DNA of 64,000 bases, taken from positions 12,498,965 through 12,562,964 of the forward strand of contig NC_035164.2 in the NCBI RefSeq assembly GCF_001659605.2, read 5' to 3'. The translations under genes and the position numbers were made by a program. A model generated the notes under the pieces. The model was not told the origin of the DNA. It made no database searches and worked only from the letters and a program-made list of their open reading frames with translations. Shown here piece by piece: positions 5,359-34,690 of this stretch. This DNA comes from Manihot esculenta. Taxonomy: Eukaryota > Streptophyta > Magnoliopsida > Malpighiales > Euphorbiaceae. Every line of letters starts with the position of its first letter. Positions within the stretch are counted from its first letter, which is position 1.

Positions 5359-5585
5359 TTCGGCGGCCGAAAGTCCCTCCAGAGCCGAAAGTCAGGCAGG
5401 TTCGGTGGCACCTTCGGCGGCCGAAACTCCCAAACAGAGAAGAAACTCATGCATGTTCGGCGGCACTTTCGGCGGCCGAAACTGCCTTCCAGAGATGAAA
5501 GTCCTCTTTTCGGGGGCAGGCTTCGGCAGCCGAAAGGCTGGCCTCCCAGGCAGGTTCGGCGGCCGAAAGTCCTTCGGCTGCCGAA
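5359..5585 (-). repeat. Dyad cluster 1 in LTR-B (centre base varies)
   Basis: Perfect dyads TTCGGCGGCCGAA occur at 5359-5371, 5413-5425, 5468-5480 and 5554-5566. Two more have intact arms but a different centre: TTCGGCAGCCGAA at about 5522-5534 and TTCGGCTGCCGAA at about 5573-5585. Arms are kept while the centre changes, as expected for selection on symmetry, though duplication and chance are not excluded. Confidence 0.82.
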
Positions 5586-6105
5586 CCTGGTTTCTGCCAA
5601 AGGGCAGAAACTTGGCTCCTCATGCACATTTGCCTCCCAAAACCATCCAAACATGCATTTTTCCTAATCTACAACATACATACTCAAGCATACAAGTTCC
5701 TAGGGGCTTCAAACTATCTTAAACCCCATCTACAACACATCAAACATCCACATTGTCCAAAAACATAACATAAACCTATAAAACTAACCATAAGCTAAAC
5801 ATGCATTCTACCCCATAGATCTACTTAAAACTTACTTAAAACATGCCATAAGCTCAAGATCGGCCCTTACCTCTTGAAGATCGAGAGGAGAACGACCCTA
5901 GCTCGGAAAATGGGAGAGAGAGAGTTCCTTGAACCTCCAAGCTCCAAAACTTGCTCAAAAGTTCAAAATCTTCAAAATAAGGGTAAAACTAATGAAAATA
6001 GAGAAAGATTTGAAGGAAGGAACTCAAAACCGGCAAGGGATGGCAGAGAGCTCACCTTGGCTGAAAATGGGGAGAAAAGCTCGCCCGTTTTCGGCTAAGG
6101 GACCC

Positions 6106-6291: not shown

Positions 6292-6469
6292 CCTGAGTTT
6301 TCCTCCAAGGTTGTTTTCATGCATAAACTCATTTTCTTTCATGCTTAAAAACATAAAACACATTAAAACATTTTATGAAAACACACTTTTACCCTTCTAG
6401 AGGTCTCCGATACCCGAGATTCCACCGGACGGTAGGAATTTCGATACCGGAGTCTAGCCGGGTTTTACA

Positions 6470-7474
6470 GATTTGGCCGGGTGATTTGCCCAAATCACCT
6501 GCCTAAATCACCCACAGGCCAGGAAGTCCCTTTTCCTTTTCTTCTTAATTTATATATATATATATGTTTACACATTGAGGACAATGTTTGCAATAGGTGT
6601 GGGGGTACTGTTAGGTTATTTTTGCATTGATTACATTATCTTTTGCTTTCTTTTTGTTTCTTTTTGCATCTTTTTGCCCTATGACACACACCAAAATTTT
6701 TTTTCACTTTCTGCACACACACACAGAATTTTGTCTTAGCTTTTGCTCTACTCAGCATAGATAACAAGGTTAAAAGAGCTTCCTATCTCATGACCCCATT
6801 GATTTTCCACCCCTTTAAGCCTAAATTGAATCAATTACAGTGTGCTACCTTCACTTAGGAAGTTCTTTTCTTGAATTGAATCTCTAAATTTGCTGTGGTC
6901 AAGGGAAATAAAAATATAAACACATGCAAATAAAAAAGTTAGTGTAACTCCCTATGAGCTGATTTGCCCAAACTGTTAAGAAAAGAAAAAGAAAAAGAAA
7001 AAAACCAGCACAAAAGCACAAATCATAAACCTGTTCCTATGGCCAAATAAGCTATGAACAGAGCTAGTAGCCACTTGAACAAGTGACTAACTGAGTAACC
7101 GGGGGTGGGTATCACCAATATGCACCTTCGCGTAAAAAGGTTAGTGACTTTTTCAAGCAAGAATAAAAAAGTGCTGCTGAATAAAATAAAATAAAATGCT
7201 CAAAGAAGGGCAAGTCACTCTTAGAGATTGCATTGAGCTTATACAAAAAGAATAAGCATGATTGAATCAAAAACCTTTCCTTTGACCATGATAGGTGAGG
7301 GGAAACAAGGAAAAGAGAGAACAACATTGGTGCATGTACTCTACACTGTAATACTTCAATTTAGGAGTCTAGAGGGGCTGATTAAGTGGTACTTAGGCTC
7401 AAAAGAAAAAGGAGCTTGATTGACTAAGTTGTTTGTTGCTTGAGGACAAGCAAAACGCTAGGTGTGGGGGTATT
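6470..7474 (+). mobile_element. Element C, 3' untranslated internal region (Athila-like)
   Basis: This matches the region of element D from about 28159 to 29294, block by block: the GTGATTTGCCCAAATCAC dyad, 'attgaggacaatgtttg', 'aggtgtgggggta', 'gagtaaccgggggtg', and the terminal 'cttgaggacaagcaaa'. It is noncoding. It has one copy of a 130-bp segment that D has in tandem. The gag-pol part of C would lie left of the window, beyond elements A and B. Confidence 0.85.
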
Positions 7475-8905
7475 TGATCAAACATAAATTAGCCACATTT
7501 TTATTATCTTTATTATTGCTTATTTACACATTTTTTTAGCTTAATTTATGGTTTTTATCTTGTTTTTATAGAAAAGGAAGAAATTGAAAAATAGGAGAAA
7601 AAGTGCAGAAAAGGCTGGAAAAGTGATTGGGTTAAAGCGATTTGGCCAAATCACTCGCAGAGACTGGCCAAATCACTCGCAGAGACAGAAAGCTAAAAAC
7701 TAGACTGACTCACATAAAGCGATTGGAGCAAGTGATTTGCCCAAATCACCCGCCCCAATCACATTGACAGCAAAAACTGACAACAGAGCGGGAAAAAGGG
7801 AAAAATCATATTTAAAAAGAAAAGAAGCCCAAAACCACTTCAAACACTGCCAGCTCAAATCCAAAAGCCACAAGGATGTCCTTCTACCAAGAGAATTCCA
7901 TCTACAACAAAATTCAAAAACAAAAGAGGAATTAAAGACCATAAAGACCAAGTCAAAATAGGGATTCCAAACCCTAATTGAACTTGGACTCTCCAGCTAT
8001 AAGAAGGCAGCCTCCAAACCAGCAAAATCATCTTCTCTCACCTTCGGAAATCTACAGAATTCAGCAGGAAGCCTGCAGCAGCCCCTTCTTCTCTTCCTTT
8101 CTTCTTCCTTTTGTGTATTTTGCCCACCATGAGTGGCTAATTTCATTCTTTCTAGTTGAAGTTGAGGAAATTCATATTTGTGATGAATTGGGAGATTTAA
8201 AACTCCATTGTTAACTCTTGTTTGCTTTCAATATTTATGCAACTTGATCTTTTCTATAATTGTTACTTTGCTTTTAGAATCAATAAGGGCCCATTGCTTT
8301 TAAATTGCTTGAGTAATAAATTGTTTGAATGAATTAAGTCCGTAATTGCTTATATTATTTGAACACAAATATAATCAGTTGCATAATCTAGACTTGACCA
8401 CGCGGTTGGCAAGGCTAGAATTGAGTTTCTCTAAGTCTTAATGCAGTCAACAGTTGTTCGATGCTAAATGCCCCAAGGACGTTCCTTGGCAACTTGTTGA
8501 CTAGTGTTTGATTGGCGAACGTTTCCCAATCGAACTAGAACTAAGGAGGAATTTGGTTGTGAGAAGTGTCTTCCACAACCAAAACTAATTTATTGAAATA
8601 AAATAGGAGTCTCAGATAATCAATGATCAATTCTGAACAAGCTGAATTAAACTCATATTTCAACTAGAATATTTTTCCCATTGAAATTCTCATTTATTTA
8701 AATTATTACTTTCTCTTGCTTTCTAGATTTAATTCATCAAAACAAAACCCCCCTCTTTTATTTATTTGTCATTTGTTTGCCTTAGTCATTATTAGAAAAA
8801 TTTTTTGTGTCAATTCCCTGTGGTTCGACCCTATTGTCACTATCTGCAAGTTAATTGTTGATTGTTTAATAGGTTTATTTTTTACGGCTTCGACAACCGC
8901 TATCA
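7475..8905 (+). mobile_element. Element C 3' LTR (Athila-like), 1,431 bp
   Basis: It opens TGATCAAAC after a purine-rich tract 'aggtgtgggggtatt' and ends 'cgacaaccgctatca'. It aligns along its length with the LTRs of element D but with many differences and indels. A TATA-like TATAAGAAG is at 7998, the counterpart of TATAAAAGG in D. Perfect dyads occur at 7639-7652 (GATTTGGCCAAATC) and 7732-7749. After 8905 the satellite begins; ATTAC at 8906-8910 is the expected target-site duplication. Confidence 0.85.
7639..7749 (+). repeat. Dyad motifs in LTR-C
   Basis: GATTTGGCCAAATC (7639-7652) is a perfect palindrome and GTGATTTGCCCAAATCAC (7732-7749) has 8-bp arms around CC. A wider pair, GATTGGAGC and GCCCCAATC, flanks the second one. 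The same motif recurs in element D and in the 3' UTR of both. Confidence 0.8.
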
Positions 8906-17900: not shown

Positions 17901-20900
17901 AATAACAATTTTGGTTATAATCTATGACGATAATATTTTGGGGTAAGTAAGGCACTGTTGTTTATTTTGCGCCCTATCGTTTCTTTTTTAATGTTCTTGA
18001 CTTTAAACTAATTAAACATGTTTTATTTTAATTGAATATTTGAATAAATAATTGCTAATAATTATTATATTTTGTTTAAAATGTATGAGTATAATATTTT
18101 GGGGTGAGAAAGGCATAGTTGTTTACTTTGCGACCATCATTTCCTTTCTAATGTTTAGGCACTGTCGTTTATTTTGCGCCCCATCCTTTCTTTTTTAATG
18201 TTCATGACTTCAAACTAATTAAAGTAAACAATTAAAATTTTATTTTCATTGAACATTTAAATAAAAGATTACCAATAGATAACAATTTTGCTTATAATGT
18301 ATGAGTATAATATTTTGGGATAAGAAAGACACTGTCGTTTATTTTGCGCCACATTATTTATTTTTTAATGTTCTCGACTTTAAATTAAATAAAATGAACA
18401 ATTAAAGTTTTTTTTTAATTGAATATTTGAATAAATAATTACTAATATATAACAATTTTGTTTATAATATATAAGCATAATATTTTAGGGTAAGCAGGGT
18501 ACTGTCATTTATTTTGGGCCCATTGTTTCTTTTGTAATGTTTCTGACTTCGTAGTAAAGTGAACAATTAAAGTTTTGTTTTAATTGAATATTTTAATTAT
18601 TGATTACTAATAAATAACATTTTTATTTATAGTGTATGAGTATAATATTCTGGGGTAAGAAAGGCACTATCGTTTATTTCGCGCCCTATCGTTTCTTTTT
18701 TAATGTTCTTCACTTTAAACTAATTAAAGTAAACAATTAATGTTTTATTTTAATTGTATATTTGAATAACTGATTACTAATTAATAACAATTTTCCTTAT
18801 AATATATGACTAATATTTTGGGGTAAGTAAGACACTGATGTTTATTTTGCGCACTATCGTTTTTTTTTTTTTTAATGTTTTTGACTTTAAACTAATTAAA
18901 CAAGTTTTATTTTAATTGAATATTTGAATAAATAATTGCTAATAATTATTATATTTTGTTTAAAATGTATGAGTATAATATTTTGGGTAACAAAGGCGCT
19001 GTTATTTATTTTGTACCCATCATTTCTTTTTTAATGTTCAGACACTATCGTTTATTTTGCGCCCTATTGTTTTTTTTTTAAATGTTCTTGACTTTAAACT
19101 AATTAATGTGAACAATTAAATTTTTGTTTTAATTGAATATTAGAATAAATGATTACTAATGAATAACAATTTTGCTTATAATATATGAGTATAATATTTT
19201 GGGGTAAGAATGACACTGTTGTTTATTTTGCGCCCTATCGTTTCTTTTTTAATGTTTTTGACTTTTAACTAATTAAACAAGTTTTATTTTAATTGAATAT
19301 TTATATAAATAATTAGTAATAATTATTATATTTTGTTTATAATGTATGAGTATAATATTTTGGGTAAAAAAAGGCACCGTCATTTATGTAGTGTCCATCA
19401 TTTATTTTTTAATATTCAGGTCGTATATTTTGCACCCCATCATTTTTTTTAATGTTCTTGACTTTAAACTAATTACAGTAAACAATTAAAATTTTGTTTT
19501 AATTAAACATTTGAATAAATAATTACTAATAGATAATAAGTTTGTTTATAATGTATAAGTTTATTATTTTGGGGATAAGAAAGGCACTGTTATTTATTTT
19601 GGATCCATCATTTCTTTTTTAATATTCTTGACTTTAAACTAATTAAAGTGAACAATTAAAGTTTTATTTTAATTAAATATTTGAATTAATGATTACTAAT
19701 AAATAACAATTTTGTTTATAATATATGATTATAATATTTTGGGATAAGAAAGGCACCATCGTTTATTTTGCGTTCATCATTTCTTTTTTAATGTTCAGAC
19801 ACTGTCGTTTATTTTGTACGCCATCGTTTCTTTTTAAAGATCATGTCTTCAAACTAATTAAAGTAAACAATTAAAGTTTTAATTTAATTGAACATTTGAA
19901 TAAATGATTACGAATAAATAATAAGTTTGTTTATAATGTATAAGTATAATATTTTAGGGTAAGAAACGCATTATCATTTATTTTGCGTCCATCATTTCTT
20001 TTTTAATTTTCAAGCACTGTCGTATATTTTGCACCCATCGTTTGTTTTTTAATGTTCTTTGACTTGAAACTAATTAAAGTAAACAATTAAAACTTTATTT
20101 TAATTGAAAATTTGAATAAATGATTACTAATGAATAACAATTTTGTTTATACTATATGAGTATAATATTTTGGGCTAAGAAAGGCACTGTCGTTTATTTT
20201 GTGCCCCATCATTTCTTTTTTAATGTTCTTGACTTTAAACTAATTAAAGTGAACAATTAAAGTTTTATTTTAATTGAATATTTGAATGAATGATTAGTAA
20301 TATATAACAATTTTGTTTATAATGTATAAGTATAATATTTTAGGGTAAGCAGGGCACTGTCATTTATTTTGGGCCTATTGTTTCTTTTCTAATGTTCCTG
20401 ACTTCAAACCTATTAAAGTCAACAATTAAAGTTTTATTTTAGTTGAATATTTGAATAAATGATTAATAATAAATAACAATTTTGTTTATAGTGTATAAGT
20501 ATAATATTTTGGGGTAAGAAAGGTATTGTCATTTATTTCGTGCCATATCATTTCTTTTTTAATGTTCGTGACTTTAAACTAATTAAAGTAAACAATTAAT
20601 GTTTTATTTTAATTGAATACTTGAATAAATTATTACTAATAAATAACAATTTTGCTTATAATGTATGAGTATAATATTTTAGGGTAAGCAGGGCATTGTC
20701 ATTTATTTTGGGCCCGTTGTTTCTTTTTTAATGTTCCTGACTTCAAACCTATTAAAGTGAACAATTATAGTTTTATTTTAATTGAATATTTGAATAAATT
20801 ATTACTAATAAATAACAATTTTATTTATATTGTATGAGTATAATATTTTGGGGTAAGAAAGGCACTGTCGTTTATTTCGCGCCCTATCGTTTCTTTTTTA

Positions 20901-22826
20901 ATGTTGTTGACTTTAAACTAATTAAAGAAAAAAATTAATGTTTTATTTTAATTGAATATTTGAATAAATGATTACTAATGAATAACAATTTTGCTTATAA
21001 TATATGAGTACAATATTTTGGGATAATTAAGGCACTGTCGTTTATTTTGCGCCCCATCGTTTCTTTTTTAATGTTCTTCACTTTAAACTAATTAAAGAGG
21101 TTTTATTTTAATTGAATATTTGAATAAAAAATTAGTAATAATTATTATATTTTGTTTAAAATGTATGAGTATAATATTTTGGGGTAAGAATAGCATTGTC
21201 GTTTATTTCGCGCCCTATCGTTTGTTTTGTAATGTTCTTGACTTTAAACTAATTAAAGTAAATAACTAATGTTTTATTTTAATTGTATATTTGAATAACT
21301 GATTACTAATGAATAATAATTTTGCTTATAATATATGACTAATATTTTGGGGTAAGTAAGGCACTGACGTTTATTTTGCGCACTATCGTTTCTTTTTTAA
21401 TGTTCTTAACTTTAAACTAATTAAACAAGTTTTATTTTAATTGAATATTTGAATCAATAATTATTATATTTTGTTTAATATGTATGAGTGTAATATTTTG
21501 GGTAACAATGGTGCTGTTATTTATTTTGTAGCCATCATTTCTTTTTTAAAGTTCAGACACTGTGATTTATTTTGCGCCTTATTGTTTTTTTTAATGTTCT
21601 TGACTTTAAACTAATTAAAGTGAACAATTAAAGTTTTATTTTAATTGAATATTTGAATGAATGATTACTAATATATAACAATTTTGTTTATAATGTATAA
21701 GTATAAAATTTTAGGGTAAGCAGGACACTGTCATTTATTTTGGGCCTATTGTTTCTTTTTTAATGTTCTTGACTTCAAACCTATTAAAGTCAACAATTAA
21801 AGATTTATTTTAATTGAAAATTTGAATAAATGATTACTAATAAATAACAATTTTATTTATAGTGTATGAATATAATATTTTGGGATAAGAAAGGCACTAT
21901 CGTTTATTTCGCGCCCTATCGTTTCTTTTTTAATGTTCATGACTTTAAACTAATTAAAGTAAACAATTAATGTTTTATTTTAATTGTATATTTGAATAAA
22001 TGAGTACTAATGAATAACAATTTTGCTTATACTCTATGACGATAATATTTTAGGGTACGTAAGGCACTGTTGTTTATTTTGCGCCCTATCGTTTCTTTTT
22101 TAATGTTCTTGACTTTAAACTAATTAAACATGTTTTATTTTAATTTAATATTTGAATAAATAATTGCTAATAATTATTATATTTTGTTTAAAATGTATGA
22201 GTACAATATTTTGGGGTAAGAAAGGCACAATTGTTTATTTTGCGACCATCATTTCCTTTCTAATGTTTAGTCAATGTCGTTTATTTTGCGCCCCATCCTT
22301 TCTTTTTTAATGTTCATGACTTCAAACTAATTAAAGTGAACAATTAAAGTTTTATTTTAATTGAACATTTAAATAAATGATTACTAATACATAACAATTT
22401 TCCTTATAATGTATGAGTATAATATTTTAGGGTAAGCAGGGCACTGTCATTTATTTTGGGCCCATTGTTTCTTTTTTAATGTTCCTGACTTTAAACCTAT
22501 TAATATGAACAATTATAGTTTTATTTTAATTGAATATTTGAATAAATGATTACTAATAAATAACAATTTTATTTATATTGTATGAGTATAATATTTTGGG
22601 GTAAGAATGGCACTGTCGTTTATTTCGCGCCCTATCATTTCTTTTGTAATGTTCTTGACTTTAAACTAATTAAAGTAAATAACTAATGTTTTATTTTAAT
22701 TGTATATTTGAATAACTGATTACTAATGAATAACAATTTTGCTTATAATATATGACTAATATTTTGGGGTAAGTAAGGCACTGACGTTTGTTTTGCTCAT
22801 TATCGTTTCTTTTTTAATGTTCTTGA
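8906..22826. repeat. Satellite array, segment 1 (about 170-bp monomers)
   Basis: About 13.9 kb of head-to-tail, very AT-rich monomers. Landmarks in each unit are 'tatgagtataatattttggg', 'ggcactgtcgtttattttg', 'tttcttttttaatgttc' and 'attttaattgaatatttg'. The distance between successive 'taatattttg' landmarks is 170 bp (16981 to 17151). A shorter class (about 161 bp, 9624 to 9785) carries 'attaaacaagtttta' and 'taattattatattttg'. Other units carry an extra 45-bp block or have lost most of the middle. I see no gene here: the few small open frames are satellite in-frame runs. The last five bases, CTTGA at 22822-22826, are the Copia target-site duplication. Confidence 0.95.
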
Positions 22827-23129: not shown

Positions 23130-23746
23130 TCCCCCCTCAAACTGTGTCCAGGATGGAGACAGAGTTTGCGTCGAAATTGTGCTAGACGAGTTTTTGTCAT
23201 TGACTTTGTAAATATATCAGCAACTTGATATGCTAAGGGAATGTATCTCGTGATTAGAACTCCTTGAGCAACGCGTTCTCTGACATAGTGATAATCAAGG
23301 GCAACATGTTTACTTCGTGTGTGTAAAACTGGATTGACTGTCAAGTGTAACGCACTTAGATTATCGCCATATAAAATTGGCGACTTGGTAGGATAAACTC
23401 ACAAGTCATCTAAGAGATAACCAAGCCAAGTGAGCTCTACTGCTGTGTGAGCCATGGAACGATACTCTACCTCGGTGCTAGAGCGAGCAACAGTGTTGTT
23501 TCTTGGCACACCAGGAGATGATATTAGCGCCGAGAAACATACAATAGCCGGTAGTGGACCGCCGTGTGGTTGGACAACCCGCCCAATCTGCATCTGAAAA
23601 AGCACTAAGAGCAAGTGATGTATCTACCGTAAATGAAAGACCATAATGTATTATTCCTTTTAAATATCGTAAAATACGACGAACATATTTCAAGTGAGAC
23701 ATTGTTGGATTGTGCATGAATTGTGAAACATAGTTGACACTATATG
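23084..23746 (-). pseudogene. Copia pol: end of reverse transcriptase and RNase H
   Basis: This is the C-terminal part of pol, beginning where element D interrupts it. The first part (SVNYVSQFMHNPTMSHLK, then FSDADWAGCPTTRRSTTG) is the RT connection followed by the RNase H core; the DADWAG motif carries an RNase H acidic residue. A frameshift near 23492 changes frame at SWCAKKQ, and the new frame continues VARSSTEVEYRSMA, another RNase H motif. A TGA at 23399-23401 follows LLDDL, where Copia proteins usually have Arg. The final frame (VNPVLHTRSKHV, QVADIFTKSM) is the typical Copia RNase H tail and runs through the polypurine tract into the LTR, ending at 23084. Confidence 0.9.
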
Positions 23747-23906
23747 TGATCAAGCATAATTTAGCCACATTTTTATTATATTTTCTACTGTTTATTTACA
23801 CATTTTTCTAGCTTAATTTGTGTTTTTGATATGTTTTTACAGAAAAGGAAGAAATTGGAAAGTTAGAGAAAAAGTGAAGAAAAAGCTGGAAAAGTGATTG
23901 GGTCAA

Positions 23907-24031
23907 AGTGACTTGCCCAAGTCACTCGCAGGAACTGGCCAAGTCGCTCGCAGAAACAAAGACAGAAACTGGACTAAACCCCAGGAAGCGATTGGGGCAA
24001 AATGAGCAAGTGATTTGCCCAAATCACTTGC
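23907..24031 (+). promoter_or_regulatory. Dyad pair in the D 5' LTR upstream of the TATA box
   Basis: At 23907-23926 the arms are AGTGACTTG and CAAGTCACT around CC. At 24006-24031 the arms are GCAAGTGATTTG and CAAATCACTTGC (12 bp each) around CC. Compared with each other, the first has C where the second has T on the left arm, and G where the second has A on the right arm, so both keep full symmetry. They lie about 260-380 bp upstream of the TATA box. The 3' LTR has the same pair, the second at 29554-29579. Confidence 0.7.
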
Positions 24032-24286
24032 AGAATCTGCCCAAATCACTTTAATAACAGAAAATACAGCAGAGGCGGGAAAAGAGCAGAAAATCCAAAT
24101 TCAAAGGAAAGAAGTCCAAGTCCACTTCAAACACCACAAGATCAGTCCCAAGAGCCACGCCCCTCATTTAGAGAGTTCCATTCTCAATCAAACACAAAAT
24201 TCAAAGAGGAATCAAAGACTACAAAGAAGACCAAATCAAATTAAGATTACAAAACCCTAATCAAATTGGACTTGGGACTCTCCAGC

Positions 24287-24294
24287 TATAAAAG
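24287..24294 (+). promoter_or_regulatory. Element D 5' LTR TATA box
   Basis: TATAAAAG in 'ccagctataaaagggcag', a strong plant TATA context, at the expected U3/R position. The copy in the 3' LTR is at 29835. Confidence 0.65.
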
Positions 24295-25197
24295 GGCAGC
24301 ATCAAAGGCATCTGATCATCTCTTTCAGCATCTGCCATCCTCGGAAATTCTCCAGCAACACAGCAGAAATTATCCTTCTTTTCTTTCTTCTTCCTTTTGT
24401 GATTTTGTCCACCATGAGTGGCTAAATCCAACCTTTTCTAGTTGAAGTTGGTGAATTTCAGATTTGTGATGAATTGGGAGATTTAAATCTCCATTATTAA
24501 ACTTCTATTTATTTTCAATATTTATGCAATTTGATCTTTCTATAATTGTTGCTTTGCTTTTAGAATCAATTTAGGCCTATTGCTTTTAATTGCTTAAGTA
24601 ACAATTGTTTGAATAATTTAGGTCCGTAATTGCTTAGATTATTTAAACACACATTTAATCAAGTTGCATAATCTAAACTTGACCACGCGGTTGGCAAGGT
24701 TAGAATTAGGTTTCTCTAAGTCTTAATGCAGTTGACAGTTGTTCGATGCTACAATGCCCCAAGGACGTTCCTTGGCAACTTGTTGATTAGTGTTTGATTA
24801 GCGAACGTTTCCTAATCAAACTAGAACTAAGGAGGAATTTGGATTGTGAGAAGCGTCTTCCACATCCTAAACTAATTTATTGAAATAAATAGGAGTATCG
24901 AAAAGATCAATGATCAATTCTAAACAAACTGAAATAGATCCATTCTTCAACTAGAATTCTTCTCCTATTGAAATTCTCATCTATTTAAATTATCGCTTTC
25001 TCTTGCTATTTAGTTTTAATCATCAAAACAAAACCCCCCTCTTTTAATTTCTTATTATTCACTTGTCCAAGTCATTAGTAGGAAAATCCGTAGTGTCAAA
25101 TCCCTGTGGTTCGACCCTATTGCCACTATCTACAAGTTAATTGTTGATTGTTTAATAGGTTTATTTTTGACGGCTTCGACAACCGCTTATCAAAAAT

Positions 25198-25215
25198 TGG
25201 CGTCGTTGCCGGGGA
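25198..25215 (+). promoter_or_regulatory. Element D primer binding site (tRNA-Asp type)
   Basis: TGGCGTCGTTGCCGGGGA lies 5 bp after the LTR end. It matches the tRNA-Asp-type PBS that I recall for Athila/Tat elements (TGGCGCCGTTGCCGGGGA), with one T for C. Confidence 0.75.
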
Positions 25216-25243
25216 TTTGATCTAACTAACGTATTTTCATTTT

Positions 25244-25330
25244 ATGACCAGGGCTGATCGTAAAGAAGCTCTTCTTTACGATCCTGAAATTGAACGCACT
25301 ACCAAGACCTTACAAGCATGGCTACAGTAA
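25244..25330 (+). pseudogene. Element D gag N-terminal stub
   Basis: A 28-codon frame from ATG 25244 encodes a start like Athila-type gag (LLYDPEIERTTKTLQAW) and stops at TAA 25328-25330. The next recognisable gag sequence, in another frame, is already close to the zinc knuckle, so the capsid core that should follow is deleted. The bases at the join, 'acagtaagtac', resemble a 5' splice site, but no matching acceptor is evident, so I treat the join as a deletion scar. Confidence 0.65.
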
Positions 25331-26394
25331 GTACGTCTTTTCTCTCTTCTCAAATTTCTGAACTAACCTCTCTTGTGGATAGTTATGTCAAAGGTCGAGC
25401 TCAACACTTTCAGCCACCAAGATCATGTAGGATCTGTGGATATGTGGGACACCCAACTGATCAATGTCCCACACTTTATCAATATGACCAACCAGTGCAT
25501 ACATTTAGAGGATTCAATAGCCAGTCTGGACATGCATATGGAGGATTCTATGAACAGCCAAGACATGATCCGTACATTGACACATACAATCCATATTGGG
25601 GAGATCAGCCGAACTATGGCTACACTGAGGCTAACAACTACCAGGACCACCAAAACTATCAAGCCCAAGCAACACCTCGAAACTCCAATATGGAACTTGA
25701 AGAGTTGGTAAGGAAGTTGGAAATTTCTGGGAAAATTCTACAATAGCAAGTAGATCAAGCGGTCAACTCAATGAACGCGCACATATTAAGAAGAGAGGAA
25801 GAGCTTCAAGATCTATGGGACGATGACGAAGGTTCCCCAAAAATAGACCAAGCTGCTGGATCTACTGCCACACCTGCCACTGCTGAAATTACACCAAAAA
25901 CCAAGTTCCAGATTACTGCAGAAAATTCAGCAATGGCAGAACCCCCTGTTGCACGTGAAGAAGCTGAAATTCAAGCTGAAAATCTGCCTGTCCAAACTAC
26001 TGCAAATAGAGACAGCAGTTGCTGTTCATCTGCTGAAAATTCCACAATTACATCAGCAATTGCTGAACCTGCTGTCCAAAAATCAGCAAGTGCTGAATCT
26101 GCCACCATTACATCCCTTGTTGCTGTCCAAACACCAGCAACCTCAGAAATTGACACCACTGAACCAGAAGTTGTTGCACTCGCTGAACCAGCAACATATA
26201 CCACTCAAACAGCTCCTAAACAGCTAGCAAAGAAGCAACAAGTGGGACAAATGGCTTCATCCTTGAGTAAGCTTGAATCACAAGGAAAGCTACCTTCCCA
26301 AACTGAGATAAATCCAAGGCAAAATGTTAGTGCCATCACATTGAGGAGTGGAAAAGAGTTGCAAGACAGTGGGTCTGAAAACTTGCAAAAATAG
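25318..26394 (+). pseudogene. Element D gag C-terminal part with zinc knuckle
   Basis: A frame starting MATVSTSFLSS holds a CCHC zinc knuckle, CRICGYVGHPTDQC, with C37, C40, H45 and C50 (CX2CX4HX4C), which in gag binds RNA. A Tyr/Gln/Asn-rich stretch follows. An in-frame TAG at 25744-25746 interrupts it; the same frame then resumes with an Ala/Thr/Glu-rich low-complexity linker, ending with the motif LPSQTEINPRQNVSAITLRS that I recall as typical of Athila-like gag. Another in-frame TAG at 26392-26394 separates it from the protease frame. The ATG at 25318 may be fortuitous, since the true gag start is at 25244. No capsid domain is present. Confidence 0.8.
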
Positions 26395-26397
26395 GCT

Positions 26398-28173
26398 ATG
26401 AAGGAAAATCTGCCAGAAAGTGATCAGGGCAATTTCTGTGATCGATCTGCCCAAGTCACCTGCGGTAATCTGCCCCAATCGCCAGAGAAGACAAACTTGA
26501 CAGAAAGTGATTTGCCCAAATCACCAAACGATTTGCCCAAATCACCAGATCAGGCAGAACCCAGTCAAGGGCAGAAACAGCAACCAGCAGATAAATTCAA
26601 GGTACCTCCTCCTTTCCCCAAAAGATTTGCAAGGTCTCAAAAAGAAAAAGAGGAGAAAGAAATACTTGAGACCTTTCGCAAGGTGGAAATCAACATTCCC
26701 CTACTTGATGCTGTAAAGCAAATTCCAAGGTATGCTAAGTTCCTCAAAGAGCCATGCACCAACCGAAGGAAACTTGCTGAACATGAAAAGGTGAGTGTGG
26801 GGGAGTGTGTCTCAGCTGTTATTCAAAGAAAAATTCCAGTCAAATGCAAGAATAGAGGGATGTTCGCTGTTTCATGCAAGATAGGCAACGTGGGGATAAA
26901 GAAAGCCATGTGTGACCTTGGAGCTTCAATCAATGTCATGCCTCTCTCTATTTTTAATTTATTGAATGCAGGTTCACTAAAAAGCACCAGCATTGTAATT
27001 CAATTGGCTAACCGATCGATTGTCTATCCCAAGGGAGTGCTTGAAGATGTGTTGGTGCAAGTGGACCAACTAGTCTTCCCAGCTGATTTTTACATCATTG
27101 ACATGGAGGAAGACAAGAGCAATACCACCTCTGACATCCTACTTGGAAGGCCATTCTTGAGCACAGCAAGAACCAAAATTGATGTGCATGATGGCACATT
27201 AACCATGGAGTTTGAAGGGGAGATTATCAAATTCAATGTTTATGAAGCTATGAAATTCCCTAAAGATGTTTCTCCTGTTTATGGCCTTGATGTCATTGAT
27301 GACTTGAGCCAAGAAGTCTTTGATTTTGATCTAGAGGAAACACTCCATGCTGATTTGTGCAGATATGAAGAGATGGACAAAAACTGCTCAGAGACAGACC
27401 AGATAGTGATGTGGGCAGATTCTGCGAGTGATTTGCCCAAATCACCCAGGCAATCTGCCCAAATCAACCAGCAGACAGAAATGACAGAAGGTGATTTGCC
27501 CAAATCACCCAGACAATCTGCCCAAATCAGTGAGCAGATAGACATGACAGAGGGTGATCTGCCCAAATCAACAGATGATCTACCCAAATCACCTAAGCAA
27601 ACAGACCCTGTCTTGCCCAAATCACTAGAGCAGACAGACTTGGTAGAGAGTGATCTGCCCAAATCACCTAGACAATTTGCCCAAATCAGTGAGCAGACAA
27701 ACATGACAGAAGGCGATCTGCCCAAATCATCAGTGCAAGCAGAATTCAATTTGCCCAAATCACCAATGCAGACAGACACGATAGGCAGTCGATCTGCCCA
27801 AATCATCAGCGATGATCTGCCCAAATCAATCAGCAGACAGCAGGCAAAGTCCCAGATAGCAGCTGCACCAGATCTGAAGCCCTTGCCCAGCCACCTCAAA
27901 TATGCCTACTTGGAAGTTGAAAATACACTTCCAGTAATTATTTCCAACCAACTCAGCAAGGAGGAAGAAGAAAAGCTCCTTGATATGTTAAGGAAACACA
28001 AGAAAGCAATTGGGTGGACCTTGGAGGACGTAAAAGGCACCTCAAGACCCTTTGGTGGAGGCTCATCTCACCAGAATCAAGGACAGAATGCAGCATATGG
28101 GGCACTTGTTGCAGCTGCTGGTGGACCATTTTTCTGCCCACAGACCAGCCACGACAGTGATTTGGCCGAGTGA
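26398..28173 (+). CDS. Element D protease region with DLPKSP repeats, truncated before RT
   Basis: A 591-residue frame in phase with the gag frame before it. An early basic/acidic region (PPPFPKRFARSQKEKEEKEI) leads to an aspartic protease-like domain: CDLGASINVMPLSIF with the catalytic Asp at about 26914, and ILLGRPFLSTARTKID at about 27136. A repeat region follows (about 27425-27840) with units such as EGDLPKSPRQSAQI, about 21 residues long. It ends with a segment found just before RT in Athila-like pol (LPVIISNQLSKEEEEKLLDM, then WTLEDVKG), and at about 28040 the similarity stops. The last 45 codons read out of frame through what looks like the tail of another gag/pol frame. RT, RNase H and integrase are absent, so this is a deletion-derived polyprotein, probably not functional beyond the protease. 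Confidence 0.82.
   Translation: MKENLPESDQGNFCDRSAQVTCGNLPQSPEKTNLTESDLPKSPNDLPKSPDQAEPSQGQKQQPADKFKVPPPFPKRFARSQKEKEEKEILETFRKVEINIPLLDAVKQIPRYAKFLKEPCTNRRKLAEHEKVSVGECVSAVIQRKIPVKCKNRGMFAVSCKIGNVGIKKAMCDLGASINVMPLSIFNLLNAGSLKSTSIVIQLANRSIVYPKGVLEDVLVQVDQLVFPADFYIIDMEEDKSNTTSDILLGRPFLSTARTKIDVHDGTLTMEFEGEIIKFNVYEAMKFPKDVSPVYGLDVIDDLSQEVFDFDLEETLHADLCRYEEMDKNCSETDQIVMWADSASDLPKSPRQSAQINQQTEMTEGDLPKSPRQSAQISEQIDMTEGDLPKSTDDLPKSPKQTDPVLPKSLEQTDLVESDLPKSPRQFAQISEQTNMTEGDLPKSSVQAEFNLPKSPMQTDTIGSRSAQIISDDLPKSISRQQAKSQIAAAPDLKPLPSHLKYAYLEVENTLPVIISNQLSKEEEEKLLDMLRKHKKAIGWTLEDVKGTSRPFGGGSSHQNQGQNAAYGALVAAAGGPFFCPQTSHDSDLAE
26512..27840 (+). repeat. Dyad motif embedded in coding sequence (about 15 copies)
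   Basis: About fifteen copies of 'tgcccaaatca'-type sequence lie within the protease frame, two at about 26512-26550 and the rest between 27425 and 27840. Several keep the complete GTGATTTG-CC-CAAATCAC dyad (for example near 27429 and 27491); others have lost the outer arms. Read in frame the motif encodes DLPKSP. Confidence 0.85.
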
Positions 28174-29294
28174 TTTGCCCAAATCACTTGGCCTAATCAC
28201 CCACATCTCAGGCAGTCCCTTTCCTTCTCCTTATTAATTTTTTCATATTTATGTTTAAACATTGAGGACAATGTTTGGGATAGGTGTGGGGGTATTTACT
28301 GCTAGGTTATATTTTTGCATTGATTACATTATATTTTTGCTTTCTTTTTTGTTTCATTTTGCATCTTTTTGCCCCATAAACACACACCAAAATTTTTCAC
28401 ACATTTTTTCACTTTTTGCACACACACACACAGAATTTTGACTTAGCTTTTGCTCTACTCAGCATAGATAACAAGGTAAAAAGAGCTTCCTATCTCATGA
28501 CCCCATTGATTATCCAACCCTTTAAACCTAAATTGAACCATGCACAGTGTGTAGCCTTTACTTAGGAAGTTTTTCTTCTTGAATTGAGTTCTTGAAACTG
28601 CTGTGGCCAATAGGAAAGGAAAATAAAATACATGAAATAAAAGTTAGTGTAATTCTCTTTGAGTTGATTTGCCCAAATTGATATAAAAAGGAAAAAGAAA
28701 AAGAGAAACTCAGCAAATCAAAAAGCACAACCTGTTCCTATGATCTAAGACTATGAACTGTGCCTAAAAGCCACTTGGAGAAGTGACTGACTGAGTAACC
28801 GGGGGTGTATCACCCATGTACACAATCGCGTAAAAAGGTCAGTGATTTTTTCAAGCAAATAAAGTTTCGATGGTCTAAGATTATGAACAGAGCTAGTAGC
28901 CACTTGGACAAGTGACCAACTGAGTAACCGGGGGTGTATCACCCATATGCACCATCGCGTAAAAAGGTTGGTGACTTTTTCAGGCAAGGATAAAAAGTGC
29001 TGGTAATTAAAAATGCTGAAAATAGGGCAAGTCACTCTTAAGGGATTGCATTAAACCTAATATAAATTAATAAGCATGATCAAATAAAAAAAACTTTCCC
29101 TTGGCCATGGTGAGCGATAGGAAACAAGGAAAGAAGGGGACAACCTTAGTACATGCATCCTACACTGTAGTGTTTCAATTTAGGAGTCTAGGGGGGGCTG
29201 ATTAAGTGGTACTTAGGCTCAAAAGAAAAAGGAGCTTGATTGACTAAGTTGTTTGTTGCTTGAGGACAAGCAAAAAGCTAGGTGTGGGGGTATT
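28174..29294 (+). other. Element D 3' untranslated region and polypurine tract
   Basis: Noncoding region between the truncated protein and the 3' LTR, homologous to 6470-7474 in element C. It starts with more dyad motifs, then 'attgaggacaatgtttggg' and 'gtgtgggggta'. A 130-bp tandem duplication lies at 28741-29000. The region ends with the purine-rich 'aggtgtgggggtatt' immediately before the LTR, the likely plus-strand primer. Confidence 0.8.
28741..29000 (+). repeat. 130-bp tandem duplication in the D 3' UTR
   Basis: Two copies, 28741-28870 and 28871-29000, each hold 'ctatgaac/ttatgaac', 'gagtaaccgggggtgtatca' and 'atcgcgtaaaaaggt'. Element C has a single copy (about 7038-7160). The second D copy is closer to the C copy ('agagctagtagccacttg'). 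Confidence 0.85.
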
Positions 29295-30740
29295 TGATCA
29301 AGCATAATTTAGCCACATTTTTATTATATTTTCTACTGTTTATTTACACATTTTTCTAGCTTAATTTGTGTTTTTGATATGTTTTTACAGAAAAGGAAGA
29401 AATTGGAAAGTTAGAGAAAAAGTGAAGAAAAAGCTGGAAAAGTGATTGGGTCAAAGTGACTTGCCCAAGTCACTCGCAGGAACTGGCCAAGTCGCTCGCA
29501 GAAACAAAGACAGAAACTGGACTAAACCCCAGGAAGCGATTGGGGCAAAATGAGCAAGTGATTTGCCCAAATCACTTGCAGAATCTGCCCAAATCACTTT
29601 AATAACAGAAAATACAGTAGAGGCGGGAAAAGAGCAGAAAATCCAAATTCAAAGGAAAGAAGTCCAAGTCCACTTCAAACACCACAAGATCAGTCCCAAG
29701 AGCCACGCCCCTCATTTAGAGAGTTCCATTCTCAATCAAACACAAAATTCAAAGAGGAATCAAAGACTACAAAGAAGACCAAATCAAATTAAGATTACAA
29801 AACCCTAATCAAATTGGACTTGGGACTCTCCAGCTATAAAAGGGCAGCATCAAAGGCATCTGATCATCTCTTTCAGCATCTGCCATCCTCGGAAATTCTC
29901 CAGCAACACAGCAGAAATTATCCTTCTTTTCTTTCTTCTTCCTTTTGTGATTTTGTCCACCATGAGTGGCTAAATCCAACCTTTTCTAGTTGAAGTTGGT
30001 GAATTTCAGATTTGTGATGAATTGGGAGATTTAAATCTCCATTATTAAACTTCTATTTATTTTCAATATTTATGCAATTTGATCTTTCTATAATTGTTGC
30101 TTTGCTTTTAGAATCAATTTAGGCCTATTGCTTTTAATTGCTTAAGTAACAATTGTTTGAATAATTTAGGTCCGTAATTGCTTAGATTATTTAAACACAC
30201 ATTTAATCAAGTTGCATAATCTAAACTTGACCACGCGGTTGGCAAGGTTAGAATTAGGTTTCTCTAAGTCTTAATGCAGTTGACAGTTGTTCGATGCTAC
30301 AATGCCCCAAGGACGTTCCTTGGCAACTTGTTGATTAGTGTTTGATTAGCGAACGTTTCCTAATCAAACTAGAACTAAGGAGGAATTTGGATTGTGAGAA
30401 GCGTCTTCCACATCCTAAACTAATTTATTGAAATAAATAGGAGTATCGAAAAGATCAATGATCAATTCTAAACAAACTGAAATAGATCCATTCTTCAACT
30501 AGAATTCTTCTCCTATTGAAATTCTCATCTATTTAAATTATCGCTTTCTCTTGCTATTTAGTTTTAATCATCAAAACAAAACCCCCCTCTTTTAATTTCT
30601 TATTATTCACTTGTCCAAGTCATTAGTAGGAAAATCCGTAGTGTCAAATCCCTGTGGTTCGACCCTATTGCCACTATCTACAAGTTAATTGTTGATTGTT
30701 TAATAGGTTTATTTTTGACGGCTTCGACAACCGCTTATCA
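29295..30740 (+). repeat. Element D 3' LTR
   Basis: It is 1,446 bp, offset 5,548 from the 5' LTR along its whole length with no indels seen. One difference was noticed, T at 29618 against C at 24070. It is followed by the ATATG duplication. Confidence 0.93.
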
Positions 30741-30745
30741 ATATG

Positions 30746-31660
30746 ATAAATCGGGTCGAGTAAGTGTTAAATATTGTAACAAGCCTACAAGGCCACGAAA
30801 GTGTGTGGGATCACCAAGGGGTGTTGTATCAGAAGTAACATCCATTCGTTGTACAAGAGGAGTTGGCATTGGCTGGCAATCCACCATTTGAGCTCATTCC
30901 AAGATAGAGTGAGCATATCGCGTCTGATTTAAATGTAAACTAGAATCCGTTATCTGCACTTGGATCCCTAAAAAGTGATGCAGCGGACCTAGATCTTTCA
31001 TGGAAAACTCTGAACTCAAAACCTGCAAGAAATTCTGAACTAGAGCCATAAAAGACCCTGTTAACAACATATCGTCCACATAGATTAGTAGAACCAAGAT
31101 ACCTGTCGATGTATGCATGACAAACAAGGAAGGATCAACTAAACTACAAAAAAAACCATAATCTAGTAAGAAAGTACTCAACCGATTAAACCATGCTCTT
31201 GGAGCCTGTTTCAAACCATATAAAGCACGCTGGAGTTTGCAAACATGATTGGGGTAATTGGGATCTTTCATTCTGGGTGGCTGCTCCATATAAATGTCTT
31301 TAGTAATAAAACCATGGAGAAAAGCATTTTTTACATCCAATTGCCTTATTGGCCATTGTTTTACTAAAGCAACAGATATAACTAATCTAATGGTTCCTGG
31401 TTTTATTACAGGGGAAAAAGTTTCGGTGTAGTCAACACCATCTTTTTGGTGGAACTCCTTGGCCACTAACCTAGCTTTTAATTTATCTAATTTCCCATCA
31501 GAGTTGAGTTTAGCTTTGTACACTCATTTACATCCTATTATATTTACATTTGCTGGTCTTGGAACTAATTTCCATGTGTGAGTAGATTGTAAAGCTTGAT
31601 ATTCTTCAAACATTGCCTAGTTCCAACCTATGTGTGCAAGAGCACTTTTAACAGTCTTGG
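30746..31660 (-). pseudogene. Copia pol: reverse transcriptase
   Basis: This is most of the RT domain on the minus strand; the rest is at 23484-23746 beyond element D. Motifs seen are KARLVAKEFHQKDGVDYTETF, RQLDVKNAFLHG (first catalytic Asp), KQAPRAWF, and YVDDMLLTG (catalytic DD, about 31071-31082). Stops in order on the minus strand are TAG at about 31618-31620 in WN*AMF, TGA at 31524-31526 where VYK is normally preceded by Trp, and TGA at 30894-30896 after SILE, usually Arg. Element D inserted at the PDLSYH/SVNYVSQ junction. Confidence 0.9.
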
Positions 31661-31964
31661 GTTCGGGTGGAACATCAGAAGATATTGACACATGCAAAGC
31701 ATAACGGGGATTTGGTTTTACAATACCTGATTGTGACCTGGTGATCATCGAATGTTAAGGGTGCGGTGCCGCAACCGGATTCTGATCGTTTGAATTCTCT
31801 GCGGGAGATGTGATAGCTGAAGTAGACAAATTCGGATTGGAGGTTCCAACAGCTGAGGTCAACTTTCCTTGGTCAGTATGAACTGCTGACGGACTGATCG
31901 CCGAATCAACGGCAGTTGAAATTACTGGTGAGGAGTCACTGAAATCGGGAGTTGAAGATGGTGA
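31661..31964 (-). pseudogene. Copia pol: linker between integrase and RT
   Basis: This is a low-complexity Ser/Thr/Pro-rich linker typical of Copia pol, with HSMITRSQSGIVKPNPRY near its end, the conserved lead-in to RT. It contains at least two stops (a TAA just before HSMITRS and one at about 31965). Nothing catalytic is expected here. Confidence 0.75.
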
Positions 31965-33362
31965 TTAGGAGTTCGCAATTTGATCAGTAAGAGAGGCTGC
32001 ATCTGTTGGTGTATTGGCATCAGTATATGCTGCTGAATTTGATGGAATAGAAGTTGAAGATGTTGCAGGTTCTTGATCTGTCGTCATGGGTAGTGGCAAC
32101 AACAAGTCTGCGTAAAAATCATCCTGTTGTGGAGTGTTATTTGCTGGTGGAATAGCAGGTGCGGAATCTGTTGTTGTGGCTTGAACAGGTTCATGTGGCA
32201 GTTCAGGTACGAGGATAACATCCTGCTGTTCTGTTGATGTACTAGAGGCACTTCTCAGAACCATACTCTCATGCTCTGCTGTAATATTTTCTGGTAATGT
32301 AGAAGTACCTGCACCAATAACAGAACTTATAGAAAAATTGTTATTCTTAGATGGGGGTAACCATGAATCTATAAGCTGGACAGCAAACAGTTTATTAGAG
32401 GATGCAGACTTGTAAGGAAAACTTATTTCATCAAAACTCACGTGCCTAGATATTATTATCTTCTTAGTTTTAGGATTGTAACATTTGTACCCTTTGTGTT
32501 TTTCACTATATCCTATAAAGACACATAAGCACGATTTAGGGTCAAACTTATGATTTCTTGTGTCCCATATATACGGAAAACACTTAGATCCAAAAACTCG
32601 CAAAGAACTATAGTCAAAATGAGACCCATGCAATTTATAATATGGTGTGTCATGTCCTAACATAGAAGTGGGCAATCTATTTATTAAAAAAACTGCAGTT
32701 TGAAAAGTCTCAACCCACATTGACAACGGCACATGACTATGGTGCATCATAGTTAAGCCTAATTCACAGATGACACGGTGTCATCGTTCAACAACACTGG
32801 TTTGCTCAGGTGTATAAGGACAAGACACTTGATGTTTAATTCCCTGTGCAAGAAAATGCGAAGATAAAGCAGTGTTTAAAAACTCACCTCCATCATCGGA
32901 GTGGAAAATTTTGATGTGCTTACCAAATTGGCGGAGCACATATTGTTCAAAAGCTTTATATGCAGCAAAAAACTCAGATTTTTTCCTCAGGGGTATTAGC
33001 CATGAATATTTAGAATAGTCATCAACCAAACAAGCATAATATTTAAATTTTGCAAAAGACAGAACAGGGGCTGATCCCCATAAATCAGAATGAATTTTTT
33101 CAAACACAGAGGAACTATTATTTGTGGACAAAGAAAATGGAAATTTACTCAACTTCCCTAACTGGCAACTATCACATAAAGATTTAGAATGCAAGGACCC
33201 TTTTACATCAATTAGGTTCTTATTAAATAAAACAAAAATTGCAGATGATTGAGGATGTCCTAATCGCTGGTGCCATATGGCCGCAGTACTAGTCTTAAAC
33301 CGATTGGAAAAATACGCTTTGGGTGCACCAGTCAAAATATAAAGATTATGTTTCCGTGGCCC
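31965..33362 (-). pseudogene. Copia pol: integrase
   Basis: On the minus strand this shows the zinc-binding N-terminal part (WHQRLGHPQ, then LCDSCQLGK), then the core: first Asp in HSDLWG, second in FHSDDGGEF, and the Glu in SVVER immediately before a TGA at 32781-32783. The frame then resumes with MMHHSHVPLSMWVETFQTAV and the C-terminal motif LRVFGSKCFPYIWDTRNHK. A TGA at 33363-33365 separates it from the protease upstream. The integrase would insert the cDNA into the genome. All parts are recognisable, but the frame is broken at both ends of the core. Confidence 0.9.
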
Positions 33363-33836
33363 TCATAGCAGTACCTGTCCCGTTTGTCGATCCTTAACAG
33401 AAATAGAAACATTAGAAAATTCACAATTGACAGGATAATCATCAGTTAATTGTCCAATAGACAACAAATTCTGTTTTAGAGCAGGAACTGATAAAACATT
33501 TGAAATAGATAATTTATTTTTATGTTCTATGGAAGCCTTCCCAACGCCATCGATAGATAGAAAAGTTCCATCTCCTATGGTTATGGAATCAAGTCCATAA
33601 TAATCATGAAGCTTATGTAATAGCTTTTTGTTACCTGTCATATGGTTCGACGCACCGGAGTCTGCAACCCAGTCAGTGTCAATAACATCATTATCCAGTG
33701 TGAGGGCAGTAAGAGCTGGAGCAGGGCTGTTCGATTTATCTTGTGGAATCCACCAGCAAATTTTGGCAATATGTCCATCCCTGTTGCAGTATTGACAAAC
33801 TTCGTTCTTGTACAATTCCCGTTCGGCTGGTGTCAT
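33363..33836 (-). pseudogene. Copia gag tail (zinc knuckle) and protease
   Basis: An open segment of 157 residues. Near its start CQYCNRDGHIAKIC is a CX2CX4HX4C zinc knuckle of gag, the RNA-binding motif. DTDWVADSGASNHMTG follows with the aspartic protease active site DSGAS (about 33647-33663). It ends at TGA 33363-33365 in QVLL*GPRKHN, normally Arg. It is separated from the main gag frame by 33837-33905, where further stops are seen. Confidence 0.88.
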
Positions 33837-34673
33837 TCTTCTACGCCTTGCGGAAAGAGGTCACCGCTGAGGGAGGCTTGGTTCCTTGTTCTGTCTTTGT
33901 CCCTATGTCTGCTGAGCTTGGAAGCCACGCCCTTGAGAGTTGAATCGAGGACGTCGATTCGAAGAAGAATTTGAAGAAGTCTGTTGATTTCCATAGAAAG
34001 CCACGTGAGAAGCAATTTGGTCAAGACCTGTTTCAGTTTGTGTGGAAAACCACATACGTCGCTGATCGAGATTCTTAAGTTGGGAGACTAGCTCATTATA
34101 CATTGGTCGCGGTGGCTTGAGCATCGTTGTGGTGAACGTGTCGTATTGGGGTCCCAGACTGGTAAGAAGACAAAATATTTTCTCTTCATCGGGTACTATT
34201 TTTCCAATTGCTGCTAAATTGTCACAGATCTCTTTAAACAATCTTAGGTGTTCTGTGATGGACCGACTTTCTTCTTTGCGAAAGTAGGTCAATTGCTGTC
34301 GGAGGATAAATACCCTTTCTTGTGAATCTTGGGCAAACGCATCTTTTAAAGCGCTCCAAACAGTATGAACAGTTTCTAATCCGATGACAAGGCCGAGTGA
34401 TTCCTCGCTTAATGTTCCATAGATCCATCCACGAAGTAATCGGTCGGACTTTTGCCATGCTTTGAATGTGTCTGATTGTTGAGGTTGATAATTTTCGGGA
34501 ATTGGGTTGGGAGGGTTATTGAATTTCTGATCCTCAGGAAAGCCACTAACAAGGTGATCTGACAGCTCCTGACTTTCAGCTAAACTCAAAACTTGTTCTC
34601 TCCACAGAGGATAGTTTGTTTGTTTGAGTTTCAAAGTGACGAAATTGGCGACATTCAGATTTGACGAAGCCAT
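33837..34673 (-). pseudogene. Copia gag
   Basis: The start codon at 34671-34673 gives MASSNLNVANFVTLKLKQTN and the frame runs 256 residues to TAG 33903-33905. The N-terminal stretch (LKQTNYPLWREQVLSLAES) and the middle (RVFILRQQLTYFRKEESRS, EKIFCLLTSLGPQYD) are the usual plant Copia gag capsid region. The tail is Ser/Asn/Arg-rich. The start lies 17 bp from the PBS. The region after the stop up to the zinc knuckle is out of frame. Confidence 0.88.
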
Positions 34674-34690
34674 GGTGAGAGATCGTCAAA

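Follow-up and report, generated by a model that had tools for sequence, protein, structure and literature searches.

Inward-facing half-site dyads in the noncoding regions of an Athila-type retrotransposon family of Manihot esculenta

Results

A short palindromic box recurs throughout a family of retrotransposons represented in the stretch of DNA studied here, a window of 64,000 nucleotides from Manihot esculenta (C4:12498965-12562964 in an assembly of 640,357,471 bases). The window holds one element, D, whose two long terminal repeats (LTRs) of 1446 bp each differ at a single position (24070), and a second 3′ part, element C (6470-8907), with 83.3% identity to D. The box is built from a half-site of 8 bp, which reads GTGATTTG or, as the reverse complement, CAAATCAC. 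Within noncoding DNA the half-sites face inward around a two-base spacer, and they do so in the U3 region of the LTR, before the Athila-type ('env-like') frame and at the start of the 3′ untranslated region (UTR). This family-wide system of palindromic boxes is genuine and known in kind and, as far as the literature could be searched, undescribed in Ty3/gypsy elements. We tentatively propose that the U3 dyads serve as binding sites for a dimeric host protein, with the copies in coding linkers arising via duplication.

The exact 18-mer, GTGATTTG-CC-CAAATCAC, was found at eight places in the window (starts 6481, 7732, 24010, 26507, 27428, 27491, 28170, and 29558), and when up to three mismatches were allowed, 29 matches were obtained (both strands counted) against 0.08 expected. 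Genome-wide, the exact 18-mer was present at 2,772 places and its reversed control at none; with up to two mismatches, there were 7,710 and 7,836 matches on the two strands (many places matching on both), compared with 1 and 2 for the control. A gapped pattern with a free base flanking the CC on each side gave no matches, the true site being 18 bp. These exact and near copies bear out the basic observation of an initial annotation of this DNA, that the motif recurs in the LTRs, the coding frame and the 3′ UTR start of D and again in C. Also present, as that annotation had described, were the paired T-A/C-G difference between the copies at 23908 and 24010, the 12-bp arms at 24006-24031 and, in the LTR of C, a perfect palindrome at 7639-7652 (GATTTGGCCAAATC). 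Dyads A and B of the D LTR precede a presumed TATA box (TATAAAAG) by about 380 and 280 bp and are therefore located in U3.

The dyad was found to be larger than first described, being the core of longer inverted repeats with arms of 32 nt at 81% (23986-24051), 29 nt at 79% (27407-27466, at the start of the coding array) and 21 nt at 90% (28157-28200). In the LTR, as in several units of the array, the dyad is followed 22 nt downstream by a second half-copy, and those copies thus descend from a shared module. When C was compared with D, paired changes were seen at pair 4 of LTR dyad A and at pair 9 of the 3′ UTR copy (G-C in C, A-T in D), and one dyad A pair was altered on a single side. The claim that symmetry is kept in the coding copies did not survive: only three of the 17 copies in the open reading frame (ORF), at 26507, 27428 and 27491, were symmetric at every one of the 8 pairs. 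Among viral contigs there were no exact matches to the motif, and none of 42 pattern stretches encoded a relative of the protease (PR); Rfam gave no matches to the window at the gathering score.

The family was placed by means of a relative of D, locus L025, in which Pfam identified Retrotrans_gag, RVT_1, RT_RNaseH and rve, followed by the PF03078 ATHILA ORF-1 family at E 4.7e-8. In L025 the gag, reverse transcriptase (RT), RNase H and integrase frames end at 5423, the Athila-type frame, which we take to be env-like, spans 6455-7522, and a dyad cluster lies between the two (5737-6003). Judged by this domain content, the dyad-bearing family is of the Athila lineage (Ty3/gypsy); D itself has no Athila-type ORF. 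The family sample consisted of 28 stretches (loci L009-L036) picked among the first 100 places with an exact motif; all lay on contig C1, and the sample is not random. Together with C and D it gave 30 sequences. These contained 413 dyad-like sites, which were classed by neighbouring homology as U3 (82), gag-PR (61), PR-RT (82), integrase-to-env (46), UTR start (40) and elsewhere (102). The integrase-to-env class was present in 14 of the 30 sequences, many of the sequences being incomplete elements. Dyads scoring at least 14/16 occurred at 1.50 per kb outside query-matched stretches (220 in 146.8 kb, a length that includes unrelated flanking DNA) against 0-0.34 per kb inside, a contrast that is partly by construction, since the query pieces were chosen by hand and some were cut between the dyad clusters of D. 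The gag, RT, integrase and 'env' pieces were taken from L025. A second Athila-like LTR (L024 2775-3500 and L028 946-1700) carries a different U3 dyad, AATTTGAAATTCAAATT, and none with arms of 7 was detected in L017. The AATTTGAAATTCAAATT dyad hints at family-specific boxes, in too few LTRs to generalise.

Conservation was measured by a best-match footprint in loci where an exact dyad is present at another place (for the U3s, outside U3), a choice that controls motif-based sampling only in part. In 22 U3s, the dyad-B 18-mer averaged 16.05/18 against a mean of 12.4 and ranked second of 403 positions beyond the anchor; the first rank was the same stretch shifted by one. At 20 sites at the 3′ UTR start, the 18-mer averaged 16.65 against a mean of 13.9 (rank 11 of 232), and 14 of the 20 were exact. 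Dyad A of D had a footprint score of 14.5 (rank 22). The 18-mer is thus an island of conservation beside faster-changing flanks, both in U3 and at the 3′ UTR start.

The half-sites were also counted individually. Both types were present in 27 of 28 U3s (a set that includes the two LTRs of D itself), with totals of 105 and 116 against 1.7 and 11.1 in shuffles, and a strong dyad was present in 21 of the 28. Around 87 strong noncoding dyads from the relatives, C and D, the extra half-sites upstream were forward in 56 cases and reverse in 2, and those downstream were reverse in 62 and forward in 1; most lay 12-14 or 21-24 bp further out. Around 60 coding dyads polarity was mixed (upstream, 20 forward and 27 reverse; downstream, 13 forward and 43 reverse). 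The initial annotation had suggested a selected site on the grounds of covarying arms. For the noncoding copies this suggestion is supported by the conservation island and the single polarity of the half-sites; the argument from covariation is, in general, not supported.

Arm covariation in noncoding DNA was analysed after dropping sites below 13/16, duplicates sharing their 42-bp context, and sites classed as 'other', 'in_RU5', 'in_ENV' or 'in_INT'. The permutation respected the score cut used to pick the sites, a version that ignored the cut being biased. The 134 unique sites that remained (at least 13/16) showed 189 one-sided and 6 two-sided arm changes; three of the latter were complementary, against 2.5 expected (p 0.45), and paired cells numbered 880 of 1072 against 877.9 expected (p 0.29). 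With a looser cut, 147 sites yielded 7 complementary changes against 4.9 (p 0.215), and paired cells gave p 0.08. In the coding linkers, complementary changes numbered 7 against 6.5 expected. Permuting the arms of the window copies alone gave 95 of 136 pairs in the ORF (97.0 expected, p 0.91), 47 of 48 in the six noncoding copies (45.3 expected, p 0.17) and 165 of 232 in all 29 copies (160.2 expected, p 0.105). Arm covariation as a general rule was accordingly not supported, the arms varying for the most part independently. Taken by class, U3 showed a slight excess of pairing (p 0.08) and the integrase-to-env class pairing below expectation. When all classes were pooled, with 'other' and 'in_RU5' added (282 sites), the count was 28 against 13.5 expected (p<0.001), an excess that we attribute to the comparison of different site classes. 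This pooled result, the U3 tendency and the UTR-start class considered below do lean toward the covariation originally proposed; the 134-site set does not.

Pair 4 was then counted genome-wide with the rest of the motif exact. There were 2,772 T-A copies, 85 C-G copies, 44 changed on the left only and 19 on the right only; by simple arithmetic about 4.6 C-G copies would be expected if the sides were independent, and the paired change at pair 4 is a genuine strong association. A hand count of the 85 C-G copies found 12 pairs 102 bp apart, which is the distance from dyad A to dyad B in D, and 8 pairs 93 bp apart, so that the copies are related and may go back to a small number of events. The dyads at C11:4736366 and 4736468, separated by 102 bp, both have C-G and stand beside 158 bp of LTR identical to D; in D, by comparison, the first site is C-G and the second T-A. 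Transfer of a whole site, with amplification, explains pair 4 without stepwise compensation, and an independent double change is possible. Symmetry maintained by paired changes was clear only at this pair, where the changed copies are clustered. At pair 3, in a count that covers the one-sided forms, these were frequent (467 left-only and 242 right-only). The one-sided pair-4 copies are not to be read as decay within a partner LTR: for several of them an array variant is found at a distance of 63 bp, and they look like coding-array copies.

In the coding array (27400-27850), the right half GCCCAAATCA occurs exactly 12 times and the left half TGATTTGCCC twice. Because the right half alone is kept there, the dyad is not a sufficient explanation of these copies. 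Across 11 of the 12 in-phase copies the nine contiguous columns of CCCAAATCA show no variation (the copy at 26465, which reads LPQS, was excluded from the column count) and their neighbours vary; moreover, in three aligned 63-bp units, none of the 22 core columns was variable compared with 11 of the 41 others (p 0.006). Spread by duplication, which the initial annotation had offered as its alternative, gains support from the 22-bp and 63-bp units. No homologs of the repeat region alone were found at E 0.001 among 3,338 candidates. That the coding copies are retained for a peptide (DLPKSP repeats) would fit the occurrence of LPKS in 11 of the 12 in-phase copies, with spacings among the 11 that are multiples of 3. 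We nevertheless regard this as scarcely credible. The copies at 27450, 27513 and 27789 are read in an alternate frame as SAQI, that at 26442 as SAQV and that at 27672 as FAQI, and with two frames drawing on the same nucleotides, the peptide alone does not suffice to explain the core. In addition, synonymous sites within CCCAAATCA are invariant in the 11 LPKS copies, whereas adjacent Leu and Pro codons vary, and none of the 120 homologs listed, of 4,215, had more than one LPKS- or SAQI-type match.

Predicted RNA folding was strongest at the 3′ UTR start of D (-27.6 kcal/mol, z -7.5). Stems were also predicted at dyad B of the LTR in D (z -4.2) and in C (z -5.7), at the 3′ UTR of C (z -3.4) and in the ORF at 26490-26560 (z -4.8) and 27410-27480 (z -3.9). 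Folds at dyad A of the D LTR (z -1.0) and at 27535-27605 in the ORF (z -0.7) were no better than those of shuffles. The D ORF ends at a stop codon (28171-28173) that falls within the left arm of this strongest of the stems (3′ UTR start, 28157-28200).

Discussion

Our preferred explanation, held with some reserve, is that the U3 clusters act as cis-regulatory sites for a dimeric host DNA-binding protein, akin to the palindromic motifs of Sireviruses; protein binding at the dyads is inferred. If each arm is retained as a binding half-site, compensatory change would be unnecessary, and a general lack of arm covariation is what one would expect because the half-sites would be read by protein. The copies in the gag-PR and PR-RT linkers would come from duplication of the same modules and would be tolerated for want of constraint on the protein there. 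For the paired T-A to C-G change, the likeliest course is that recombination or conversion carried it from one LTR site to a neighbouring one, after which transposition multiplied it.

A number of observations weigh against this explanation. The best-match footprint favours multi-copy motifs. In a column alignment of U3 site 1 from 27 elements, the dyad scored 0.763 and its right arm 0.679 against 0.857 for the upstream flank, which was itself the search anchor in an alignment disturbed by duplicated modules (only 6 of 24 UTR sites were ungapped in such an alignment, and the UTR result was not used). A strong dyad is lacking from seven of the 22 U3s of the footprint set and from seven of the 28 LTR stretches, and the inward polarity could stem from tandem duplication on either side of a founding dyad. 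Several of the stems predicted in RNA are strong, and the UTR-start class taken alone paired above expectation (p 0.006 with 27 sites, 0.007 with 35). Ranking close behind the protein-binding explanation is a neutral repeat that propagates itself by slippage, unequal recombination or RT template switching and survives where it is harmless, although judged by itself it seems rather unlikely. Such a repeat would account for the concentration of dyads in linkers and U3, for the variation in strong dyads per U3 from 0 to 3 among the 22 elements, and for the 63-bp and 22-bp tandem units. It would also fit a deletion of the protease core common to loci L037, L038 and L039, the right end of which coincides with the dyad at 27491; this counts as one event of two, the different deletion in L040 ending away from a dyad. 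Neutral spread is harder to reconcile with the conservation island formed by the 18-mer in U3 and at the 3′ UTR start, or with the invariant core of the 63-bp units.

Selection for an RNA or DNA hairpin as such, whether for packaging, for dimerisation or as a trigger of host small interfering RNAs (a role put forward for the palindromes of maize Sireviruses), draws on the strong stems and the excess pairing at the UTR start just mentioned, on the paired change at pair 9 of the UTR copy and on the 9-nt gaps that flank dyad B on both sides when C is compared with D. Small RNAs are in addition reported to be attracted by Sirevirus palindromes, an excess over the LTR palindromes of maize Sireviruses being given, after Bousios et al. 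2016, in the accessible text of PMC10760457. We consider a hairpin improbable, however, given that one-sided changes in noncoding sites outnumber two-sided ones so greatly and complementary changes are not in excess, that dyad A of D and the ORF copies at 27535-27605 fold at shuffle level, and that the coding copies retain just one half. Judging by the TATA box, the U3 copies should moreover be missing from the 5′ leader of the transcript, and the suggestion of a packaging or dimerisation hairpin in that leader is disfavoured for these copies. Copying from arm to arm, by quasipalindrome correction or hairpin-templated synthesis, would make the arms alike through mutation and not selection. The surplus of C-G copies at pair 4 and the equal gaps on both sides of dyad B are in its favour, but one-sided forms are common at pair 3, the noncoding sample shows no excess of complementary changes, and whole-site transfer between A and B would also account for pair 4; we hold this mechanism to be very improbable.

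The nearest known counterpart is found in the Sireviruses of the Ty1/copia group, whose palindromic repeated motifs (RM) include CACCGGACTGTCCGGTG of OPIE-2/PREM-2; according to the accessible text of that report, boxes in the LTR and before env are specific to Sireviruses among the Ty1/copia elements compared, and Tnd-1 likewise lacks a CGG-CCG core (Bousios et al. 2010, PMC2829016). To the extent that the source describes them, RM and Athila dyads have in common that they are short-spacer palindromes, many per element, placed ahead of the TATA box in the LTR and again ahead of env. Sireviruses are characterised by at least 8 RM copies per element, and in D the dyads, degenerate copies counted along with symmetric ones, number more than 20. 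As to placement, the U3 sites of D are upstream of TATAAAAG, and the cluster at 5737-6003 of L025 precedes the PF03078 frame at 6455. The lineage is nonetheless different, the Athila family being Ty3/gypsy with the order RT, RNase H, integrase in L025. Ty1/copia elements have integrase before RT, and this order was not found in L025. Unlike the CGG-CCG core of the Sirevirus motifs, that of most Athila copies is GTGATTTG-CC-CAAATCAC or near it and is AT-rich, and Athila dyads extend to coding linkers and to the start of the 3′ UTR. With maize Sirevirus LTRs, as far as the source describes them, the family shares clusters of palindromes in the LTR and strong predicted secondary structure; it differs from those small-RNA targets in that base-pair covariation is not general. 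In Retand elements, which are Ty3/gypsy, tandem repeats specific to each family lie between pol and the 3′ LTR according to the accessible text of PMC11963269, and what they share with the Athila family is family-specific short repeats outside the core genes. Among the literature matches listed, with subscription journals mostly beyond reach, no report of palindromic boxes in Athila or gypsy LTRs was found.

Going further, Sireviruses and the Athila family might have evolved inward-facing boxes in U3 and before env independently, as a shared device by which an LTR promoter and an internal promoter would respond to a dimeric host factor. We regard this as doubtful. The presence of AT-rich, differently built boxes at the same two places in a Ty3/gypsy family would be a sign of convergence. 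For the question of how plant retrotransposons of this kind regulate their promoters, the dyad supplies a definite sequence that can be tested. The finding on half-sites also counters the view that symmetry of this sort means a hairpin, the likeness of the arms being due mostly to both of them copying one half-site.

Other features of the window

The dyads and the main parts of elements D and C are listed in Table 1.

Table 1. Positions of dyads and element parts in the window
Feature	Position	Strand	Remark
U3 dyad A, 5′ LTR of D, GTGACTTG-CC-CAAGTCAC	23908..23925	+	both arms altered at pair 4
U3 dyad B, 5′ LTR of D	23986..24051	+	32-nt inverted repeat, 81% complementary, around GTGATTTG-CC-CAAATCAC (24010-24027)
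Dyad A, 3′ LTR copy in D	29456..29473	+	
Dyad B, 3′ LTR copy in D	29558..29575	+	
Weaker related dyad, 3′ part of D LTR, TTCACTTG-TC-CAAGTCAT	25058..25075	+	not conserved in element C
gag-PR junction of D	26442..26545	+	four dyad copies (26442, 26465, 26507, 26528); only 26507 fully symmetric, 8 pairs
PR-RT array of D	27407..27829	+	13 dyad copies; CCCAAATCA kept, left half variable; two reading frames
3′ UTR-start inverted repeat of D	28157..28200	+	21-nt arms, 90%; centred on dyad 28170-28187
Degenerate dyad, 3′ UTR of D, TTGATTTG-CC-CAAATTGA	28664..28681	+	
3′ UTR-start inverted repeat of C	6470..6509	+	19-nt arms, 84%; dyad 6481-6498
U3 dyad A of C, GCGATTTG-GC-CAAATCAC	7637..7654	+	
U3 dyad B of C	7732..7749	+	exact; 9-nt gaps on either side relative to D
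5′ LTR of D (TGATCA...TTATCA)	23747..25192	+	boundaries read by eye; target site duplication ATATG 23742-23746
3′ LTR of D	29295..30740	+	boundaries read by eye; target site duplication ATATG 30741-30745
Presumed TATA box of D LTR, TATAAAAG	24287..24294	+	read from sequence; presumptive promoter role
Open frame of D	26395..28173	+	protease region, dyad array, RT start, then join to 3′ coding end

After the 5′ LTR of D, where a primer binding site would lie, stands TTGGCGTCGTTGCCGGGGA, a candidate for such a site, perhaps for tRNA-Asp. From the ORF translations, read by eye, most of RT and integrase is missing from the frame at 26395-28173. This frame has protease homology, its best-scoring relative being a Manihot esculenta protein with 90% identity over 41% of the query; Pfam gave no matches at E 0.001 to three frames of D. 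LTR starts like that of D are young, judging by their sequence identity: among the best 40 scored places (2,360 candidates), 31 were 100% identical over 158 bp, the two of D included. At C8:37065502, 37069969 and 37074442, three LTR starts on the same strand are spaced 4467 and 4473 bp apart, which suggests a tandem of the form LTR-internal-LTR-internal-LTR.

Over the dyad array, an antisense frame of 208 aa is open at 27279-27905 (minus strand), as expected of an array that nearly matches its own reverse complement. A different short dyad, CATTGAGGACAATG, lies at 28259-28277, just 5′ of an extra purine-rich tract, and is the best-conserved 18-mer of 28091-28340 across 23 relatives. Large satellite arrays with a unit of 169/170 bp occupy about 8900-22800 (upper end by eye) and 35001-64000 of the window, and the two are separated by element D together with a Copia-like element (30894-34685, minus strand, by eye). 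Within the satellite array, at 43288-44334 on the minus strand, Pfam identified the middle and C-terminal domains of a TPP enzyme in a frame of 348 aa, which by eye is acetolactate-synthase-like.

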